From Rhodovibrionaceae bacterium (GTDB lineage Bacteria; Pseudomonadota; Alphaproteobacteria; Kiloniellales; DSM-21159), in contig JANQMX010000050.1 of NCBI GenBank assembly GCA_028279885.1, forward strand, positions 1 through 64,000: DNA of 64,000 nt. The letters are read 5' to 3'. Positions within the stretch are counted from its first letter, which is position 1, and each line of letters starts with the position of its first letter. A program made the translations under genes and the position numbers. The notes under the pieces are model-generated. The model saw nothing but the letters and a program-made list of their open reading frames with translations, was not told the origin of the DNA and made no database searches. This document shows, piece after piece, positions 13,903-15,898 of this stretch.

Positions 13903-14280
13903 TCAAGGCGCCTCGACCTCCTGCGTGCTGAAATCTGCCGGCGTGACGATCTCGAGCATCTCCAGATCGTCGGAGTGCGCCACCTCGCGGTGCCGGATAC
14001 CCGGCGGCTGATGCACGCAGTCGCCGGCCTCCAGCGTCACCGGGCCCGCACCTTCGTATTCGAAGGTCACCCAGCCTTTGAGCACGTAAACCATCTGGAA
14101 GTCGAGATCGTGCACATGCCAGACGGGATTAGCGCCGTGGCCTTCTCTGGCCTTGATGACATGAGCAACGAAGCGTCCGTCCGTTGCGGCCTCGATACCA
14201 AGATCACGGTAGTGGAAGAAGGCGCGCAACCCCTCGGCCGCGGGCCCTTGTTCCGCCGCTTTATGAATTGCCAGCTTCAT
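13903..14280 (-). CDS. Cupin domain protein
   Basis: This 125-residue single-domain cupin shows the two metal motifs in reduced form: 'PVWHVHDLDFQMVYVLKGWV' and 'GDCVHQPPGIRHREV'. Small cupins of this type bind a metal and may be isomerases, dioxygenases or binding proteins; no reaction can be assigned. ATG 14280 (MKLAIHKAAEQ) was preferred to the frame start at 14325 because GGAAGG lies just before it. It converges with the FAH-family gene. Confidence 0.75.
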   Translation of the reverse strand: MKLAIHKAAEQGPAAEGLRAFFHYRDLGIEAATDGRFVAHVIKAREGHGANPVWHVHDLDFQMVYVLKGWVTFEYEGAGPVTLEAGDCVHQPPGIRHREVAHSDDLEMLEIVTPADFSTQEVEAP

Positions 14281-14476
14281 GTCTCGCCTTCCGCTGCCCG
14301 AGCCCGATTTGGCCAAATTTAGCATAAATGCAGGGCAGGCAGCGAGGCTGGCTGGCTGCGGTGCGCCGAGCGCACAAGGGCCGGCTGCGCAAATGTATTG
14401 GCACTGTTGATTTTAAATAGTTACCGAATATGGTTAAAATTAAGATTTGAGAATTATTGTTTATTTCTTATGTCTA

Positions 14477-14506
14477 CTTGACATTTTCTTGGATCTGAAC
14501 TATATT
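14477..14506 (+). promoter_or_regulatory. Consensus promoter with A/T-rich upstream element
   Basis: CTTGAC at 14477-14482 and CTATAT at 14500-14505 form a perfect match to the alphaproteobacterial housekeeping consensus CTTGAC-N17-CTATAT; read as sigma-70 elements, TTGACA-17-TATATT. The 70 bases upstream are strongly A/T-rich, unlike their surroundings, and could act as an UP element. This strength is typical of stable RNA genes. Confidence 0.85.
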
Positions 14507-14511
14507 GTGAC

Positions 14512-14698
14512 AGAGTTGAGACCGTGGCGTGGTGCTTGGGGATGCCACAGCGGTCTCGGCTTCGCCGGGCCAACAAGCCCGGCGCTAGGGGCTGGCCTTG
14601 GGGAAGGGCAACCCTTGGATTGGTAACGTTGGAGCAGATAGCCTCCTTCCAACCATGAGGCTCACCTTGCCCCCGCCGTTTCGGCGGGGGCATTTGTT
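14512..14698 (+). ncRNA. Independently transcribed small RNA (unassigned; 6S-sized)
   Basis: A transcript of about 187 bases is bounded by a consensus promoter and an intrinsic terminator, with no credible coding frame. The 5' part forms a hairpin closing GAGACCG on CGGTCTC (14518-14557 region). A second hairpin has CGCCGGGC and GCCCGGCG arms around CAACAA. The 3' part has the terminator. Length, strong promoter and isolation fit an abundant housekeeping RNA such as 6S RNA, but I cannot align it to 6S from memory. SRP RNA (no GGAAGGAAGCA motif), RNase P RNA and tmRNA are not supported. The neighbouring merR gene runs against it. Confidence 0.75.
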
Positions 14699-14700
14699 TT
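14669..14700 (+). terminator. Rho-independent terminator of the small RNA gene
   Basis: GCCCCCGCCG (14669-14678) and CGGCGGGGGC (14682-14691) form a 10-bp stem with a TTT loop, followed by ATTTGTTTT. It is the strongest terminator in the window. Confidence 0.9.
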
Positions 14701-14732
14701 CTGGCAGCCTTTGCGATGGGGGCAGGGCCGAC

Positions 14733-15158
14733 TCAGTGCCTGTGGTTGCTGCAAAGTTGATGATCGGCCAGACAAGCCATGACGCGGCAGTCGCCTATCA
14801 CCCCACCCTCGCAGGCTGACACGATGCGCTCCAGCTCAGCCTTTAAGGCCCGCAAGCGCTGCAGCCGGCTCTCAACGTCCTTCAGGTGCTGCCGCGCCAG
14901 GCGGTCGGCCTCGGCGCAGTCCTGCTCGGGCCGGTCCTGAAAACTGAGCAACTCGCGAACGGCCTCGAGCGGAAATCCAAGGTCGCGGGCGTGGCGAATG
15001 AAGCGCAGTCGCTCGATTTCCGCGCGCCCGTAGCGCCGCTGGTTACCCGCGCTACGGCCGACGGGGGCAATCAGGCCCTCCTGCTCGTAGTAGCGGATGG
15101 TCGGCACCTTACAGCCGGTTTCCCGTGACAGCTGCCCGATCGTCAATTGGTGCGCCAT
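14733..15158 (-). CDS. MerR-family heavy-metal-responsive regulator
   Basis: This 141-residue regulator has the MerR winged helix ('LTIGQLSRETGCKVPTIRYY', 'NQRRYGRAEIERLRFI'), a dimerisation helix near 82-115 and a cysteine-rich tail (Cys116, Cys124, Cys129, Cys136) plus Cys81. That cysteine layout resembles the ZntR/CadR/PbrR group, which senses divalent soft metals. It is divergent from a CDF efflux gene, and the intergenic region has a MerR-type promoter with a 19-bp spacer, so it most likely activates that transporter and controls itself. The exact metal is not evident. Confidence 0.88.
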   Translation of the reverse strand: MAHQLTIGQLSRETGCKVPTIRYYEQEGLIAPVGRSAGNQRRYGRAEIERLRFIRHARDLGFPLEAVRELLSFQDRPEQDCAEADRLARQHLKDVESRLQRLRALKAELERIVSACEGGVIGDCRVMACLADHQLCSNHRH

Positions 15159-15253: not shown

Positions 15254-15898
15254 GTGGCTGGGTCCTGTTGCGGTCAAAACGTTGCCTTCGATGGCCTGTC
15301 GCGCGCCTATAAGCGCGTGCTGCTGGCGGTTATTGCCATCAACGCCAGTATGTTCCTGTTCGAAGGGGCGGCGGGCTTCATCGCCGATTCGCAGGCGTTG
15401 AAGGCCGACGCATTGGATTTTCTCGGCGACAGCGTGACCTACGCGATCAGCCTAGCGGTGATTGGCGCTCCTTTGCTCATCCGTGCCCGAGTCGCGCTGC
15501 TGAAGGGCCTCAGCCTTGCGGCCATGGGACTTTGGGTGCTGATCAGCACCGGCATGGCCGTTTGGGACGACGGCGTTCCGCTCGCTCCCGTCATGGGCGG
15601 AGTCGGTTTTCTTGCGCTGCTCGCCAACCTGGCCAGCGTCGCGCTCCTGATGCGTTATCGCGAGGGCGACTCCAACGTCCGTTCGGTCTGGCTGTGCAGC
15701 CGAAATGACGCGATTGGCAATATCGCCGTGGTGATTACGGCCAGCGGTGTCTGGGCCTCGCAGAGCGCCTGGCCGGACCTGGTCGTGGCCGCCGGAATGG
15801 CTCTGTTGTTCTTCTCCAGCGCGGTCCAGATCATCCGCCAGGCCCTGGCCGAGCAGGCCTCTTTACAGGCGGTCGAACCTCTCGCTGATCACACTTAG
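15254..15898 (+). CDS. Short cation diffusion facilitator-like efflux protein
   Basis: This 214-residue membrane protein has six predicted helices and lacks the cytoplasmic C-terminal domain of most CDF transporters (about 300 residues). Helix 2 has 'LKADALDFLGDSVTY', where the usual HxxxD metal site reads DxxxD. Helix 5 has 'VWLCSRNDAIGN', where the usual HxxxD reads CxxxD. These replacements keep a four-ligand site but change its chemistry. CTD-less CDF proteins such as MmCDF3 of Maricaulis are known. The adjacent MerR regulator supports metal efflux; metal identity is unknown. The start is GTG 15254. Confidence 0.78.
   Translation: MAGSCCGQNVAFDGLSRAYKRVLLAVIAINASMFLFEGAAGFIADSQALKADALDFLGDSVTYAISLAVIGAPLLIRARVALLKGLSLAAMGLWVLISTGMAVWDDGVPLAPVMGGVGFLALLANLASVALLMRYREGDSNVRSVWLCSRNDAIGNIAVVITASGVWASQSAWPDLVVAAGMALLFFSSAVQIIRQALAEQASLQAVEPLADHT

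Follow-up and report, generated by a model that had tools for sequence, protein, structure and literature searches.

In the 64-kb window analysed here, i.e., the whole stretch of alphaproteobacterial DNA under study, the gap between a cupin gene and a merR gene raises the question whether it holds a gene of its own and, if so, what this gene would do. A sequence-only reading had proposed an orphan small RNA gene. This is still the best reading and it is supported: the promoter-RNA-terminator unit and its folding are kept in a sister species, and the RNA belongs to no Rfam family. The features of the locus are listed in Table 1. Because the genes on its two sides are encoded by the minus strand, the RNA is neither the leader nor the 3' UTR of its immediate neighbours. 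To our knowledge, few small RNAs have been described outside the model orders of the Alphaproteobacteria.

Table 1. Features of the cupin-RNA-merR locus and their identity to the sister species (G001)
Feature	Coordinates	Strand	Identity	Remarks
Cupin protein gene	13903-14325	-		Left neighbour
Intergenic DNA, left			46%	
A/T-rich upstream block	14409-14470	+	90%	DNA just left, 46%
Sigma-70-type promoter, TTGACA-N17-TATATT	14478-14506	+	76%	11/12 match
Small RNA, predicted transcript	14513-14698	+	88% (RNA body)	Start inferred ~7 bases past the -10 element
5' long stem-loop	14513-14562	+		Outer helix common to the two MFE structures; inner part paired differently in each species
Second hairpin	14563-14584	+		GAAA tetraloop hairpin in G001
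Third hairpin	14585-14618	+		Nearly invariant: one substitution, one indel
AGCCUC-loop-GAGGCU hairpin option	14640-14662	+		With CCUCCUUCCAACC (14642-14654); G001 fold
Intrinsic terminator stem and T tract	14668-14700	+	94%	
Intergenic DNA, right			46%	
MerR-type regulator gene	14733-15158	-	83% (coding)	Right neighbour; identity below that of the RNA body

The promoter had been described as a textbook one, and this description is borne out. TTGACA(14478)-N17-TATATT(14506) is the sole site with at least 10 of 12 matches when both strands of the window are scanned, and in simulations with the local composition the number of 11/12 sites expected by chance in 341 bases is 0.003. The A/T-rich DNA upstream of it is equally real, with a GC fraction of 0.22-0.26 at about 14405-14505. 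The conserved part of this DNA is probably a UP element and/or a region where a regulator binds. Its conservation exceeds that of the core promoter, so that a regulator site may be present in addition to a UP element. No further copy of the block was found in the genomes searched. It includes ATGGTTAA at 14430-14437, the complement of which, TTAACCAT, is reminiscent of CtrA half-sites. In the sister species, the promoter reads TTGACT-N17-TATCCT, with the 17-base spacing kept and a weaker -10 element. Strong expression, as had been suggested, is predicted only from the shape of the promoter, and the RNA may be abundant.

The terminator was also correctly recognized: at 14668-14692, a strong stem of 11 pairs with a loop of 3 is followed by TTTGTTTT. 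Taken by themselves, terminator-like matches are no more frequent than expected by chance (1 vs. 1.9 expected); this one lies ~180 nt downstream of the promoter. The RNA predicted between these signals is ~185 nt long, close to the ~187 bases claimed earlier, and folds better than shuffled sequences, with a minimum free energy (MFE) of -100.2 kcal/mol and a z-score of -4.89 (-3.83 for the homologue in the sister species). In the latter, the loop of the second hairpin has turned into the GAAA tetraloop, which is closed by a new C-G pair. Within 14619-14662, two pairings, GUUGGA/UCCAAC and AGCCUC/GAGGCU, are mutually exclusive. Both are possible in both species, and the two MFE folds choose differently: the AGCCUC/GAGGCU hairpin is predicted in the sister species, whereas the pairing that competes with it is found in the fold from the source genome.

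A DNA search of 98 related genomes revealed a single homologue, in the Rhodovibrionaceae MAG PL24a_bin.31 (G001), which represents another species of the same genus. The block 14409-14700 is ~87% identical between the two. It ends abruptly at 14409 and about 14701, with identity falling to 46% in the directly adjoining DNA. The cupin-RNA-merR order is kept, and the gene beyond the cupin gene looks different. The two independently calculated MFE folds have 50 pairs in common, and only four of the 20 substitutions touch these pairs. None of the pairs is broken, compared with a simulated mean of 5.3 (P = 0.0006), a test that is biased toward its result, as the pairs were chosen for their presence in both folds; when a single structure is used, P becomes 0.085 for the fold from the source genome and 0.019 for that from the sister species. 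Covariation proper was not seen: in the two sequences compared, no pair is altered on both sides yet kept. The conservation pattern also bears on the idea that a decayed or chance arrangement of promoter and terminator is present here, which is not transcribed. This idea would fit the weaker -10 element in the sister species and the fact that the promoter is the least conserved stretch of the block, but it does not account for sharp edges of conservation at the promoter block and the terminator, outside which the intergenic DNA can hardly be aligned, and we consider it highly improbable.

Could the conserved entity be a protein? As the sequence-only reading had stated, no protein gene is evident in the gap on either strand, the flanking genes being on the minus strand and an indel in the sister species displacing the inner frames. 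The + strand of the RNA region does contain an ATG frame of 38 codons, of which the first 23 and the twelve at the C-terminal end (VTLE..ASFQP) are each similar between the two species, as would be expected of the mRNA of a small protein or of a dual-function RNA. However, a one-base deletion in the sister species throws the long frames of either strand out of register and places the two similar halves in different frames. Moreover, no start codon with a well-placed Shine-Dalgarno (SD) sequence is conserved, and the substitutions fit RNA helices. A small-protein mRNA or dual-function RNA is, therefore, very unlikely, and protein-coding DNA on the + or the - strand was rejected on the basis of the indel. 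Because the substitutions spare the shared helices and the one-base indel shifts the frames, it is the RNA rather than a protein that is conserved.

The small RNA gene appears, from sequence searches, to be restricted to the genus, in which two species are known to carry it. BLAST and a covariance model built from two sequences did not detect the RNA in the other 10 genomes of the family, in 61 genomes of the order or in a sample of 385 genomes of the class; the limited reach of a two-sequence model means that highly divergent relatives might have escaped detection. Plasmids, phages and viral contigs gave short chance matches or none. Eight other genomes of the family, from other genera, have other genes beside their cupin orthologue, and the RNA is absent there. 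Several weak matches were discarded as relatives: three (L100, L102 and L103) look like protein-coding DNA, and two (L101 and L125) are without a matching promoter-RNA-terminator layout. Conservation next to the merR and cation diffusion facilitator (CDF) genes in relatives had been named as a check; it was found in the sister species as cupin-RNA-merR and not in the other family genomes searched.

This arrangement could be taken to mean that the small RNA works with the neighbouring metal-efflux genes, e.g., that it is induced by metals and tunes their expression. The order of the genes is kept in the sister species, the merR product is most similar to CadR/PbrR and CueR, and the CDF gene encodes a cation efflux protein. 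Proximity is weak evidence by itself, though, and it is seen in two genomes only. In addition, the neighbours have their own control, and their start regions pair unexceptionally with the candidate seed of the RNA (see below), a comparison made without a null model. Thus, such a partnership is unlikely. The cation-efflux-like protein, encoded at 15254-15898 divergently to the CadR/PbrR/CueR-like regulator, is short (214 amino acids) and matches the CDF profile mostly in the later part of the profile.

The reading that we favour, and hold to be somewhat better than an even bet, is a free-standing gene for a ~185-nt non-coding RNA whose likeliest role is that of a trans-acting regulator working by base pairing. 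The segment AGCCUCCUUCCAACC (14640-14654) is invariant between both species and resembles an anti-SD sequence, and the candidate seed within it can lie in a hairpin loop, as modelled in the fold from the sister species. Anti-SD loops of alphaproteobacterial small RNAs such as NfeR1 bind translation initiation regions by base pairing (PMC3927594, PMC10746234). By analogy with these RNAs, the RNA described here would most probably serve as a trans-acting repressor. The RNA would be driven by its own housekeeping-type promoter and its transcript ended by the intrinsic terminator, and the three 5' hairpins may confer stability. The conserved C/U-rich segment CCUCCUUCCAACC near the 3' end, within a hairpin loop or adjacent to one, would then act as the seed; by pairing with ribosome-binding regions rich in G and A, it would block the translation of target mRNAs. 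An exact-pattern search with the seed revealed no site at a start codon that is kept in both species; the sites they have in common are located in other frames or in coding sequence. The full complement of the seed is not enriched (8 sites vs. 9 for the reversed pattern). An apparent target ahead of a solute-binding-protein gene was rejected, as the site is located inside the probable coding start of that gene.

Alternatively, the product might be a stable structural or protein-binding RNA, which, like 6S RNA, binds RNA polymerase or another protein. The promoter of the stable-RNA type with A/T-rich DNA upstream, the long 5' stem and the very stable hairpins would all be consistent with such a role, and 6S RNA, to which the sequence-only reading had pointed as the closest in size, shares the similar length and the strong promoter. 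The hint is, nevertheless, excluded. The source genome has its 6S RNA on another contig (G000:C107:53418-53575, i.e., L002 1501-1658, minus strand; 77.4 bits against RF00013), and this is its only RF00013 match, whereas the segment 14380-14740 does not reach the gathering score of 46.4 bits and gives no match up to an E-value of 10. Furthermore, 6S RNA folds into one long rod and mimics an open promoter with its central open bubble, whereas the MFE folds of both species consist of hairpins in series. A structural role is, thus, rather unlikely. Another reading, in which a new, genus-specific and abundant RNA would have a conserved tertiary or protein-binding architecture, with the third hairpin and the exclusive 3' pairings as a conformational switch instead of antisense action, is decidedly improbable.

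Other known RNAs do not account for the base-pairing regulator that we prefer either. No match in the 64-kb window reached a gathering score in Rfam, so that the proposal of an RNA outside the known families stands. The best sub-threshold matches in 14380-14740 cover the 3' half, which holds the terminator, and fall far short of the cut-off: 16.7 vs. 41 bits for RF00519 (mmgR/suhB), 19.1 vs. 49.5 bits for RF02837 (anti-hemB) and 18 vs. 80 bits for RF00021 (Spot 42). These likenesses rest mainly on the terminator hairpin. SRP RNA and RNase P RNA were rejected: the window has no match to them at the gathering score, and none is listed for the segment at an E-value of 10. The tmRNA was rejected as well, with no match in Rfam and none by ARAGORN. 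In all likelihood, the locus contains a real, undescribed and genus-restricted small RNA gene that is ordinary in kind. As the evidence stands, it is a further orphan small RNA that leaves the general picture unchanged; with its sharply conserved promoter-to-terminator unit, it offers a usable starting point.

Among the closest known systems are the αr14 and AbcR RNAs. Like the αr14 RNAs (NfeR1, SmelA075/SmelA099), the RNA described here is a free-standing alphaproteobacterial small RNA with hairpins, a terminator and a C/U-rich anti-SD-like segment. The αr14 RNAs carry CCUCCUCCC, unpaired, in the loop of each of three hairpins (PMC3927594, PMC10746234). Here, a single CCUCCUUCC (14642-14650) is present, and there is no Rfam match; membership of αr14 was, therefore, rejected. 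The AbcR RNAs are shorter than this RNA and folded differently. AbcR1 and AbcR2 block ribosome binding sites with a partial anti-SD loop (PMC3927594, PMC10746234), and it is in such a loop that the likeness lies, whereas the RNA described here matches no Rfam family. By analogy, its mode of action may be similar to that of AbcR and NfeR1, i.e., in trans and via the anti-SD segment. With its own promoter, a predicted structured non-coding RNA, an intrinsic terminator and conservation beyond that of its flanks, it is of the general kind of the free-standing intergenic bacterial small RNAs.
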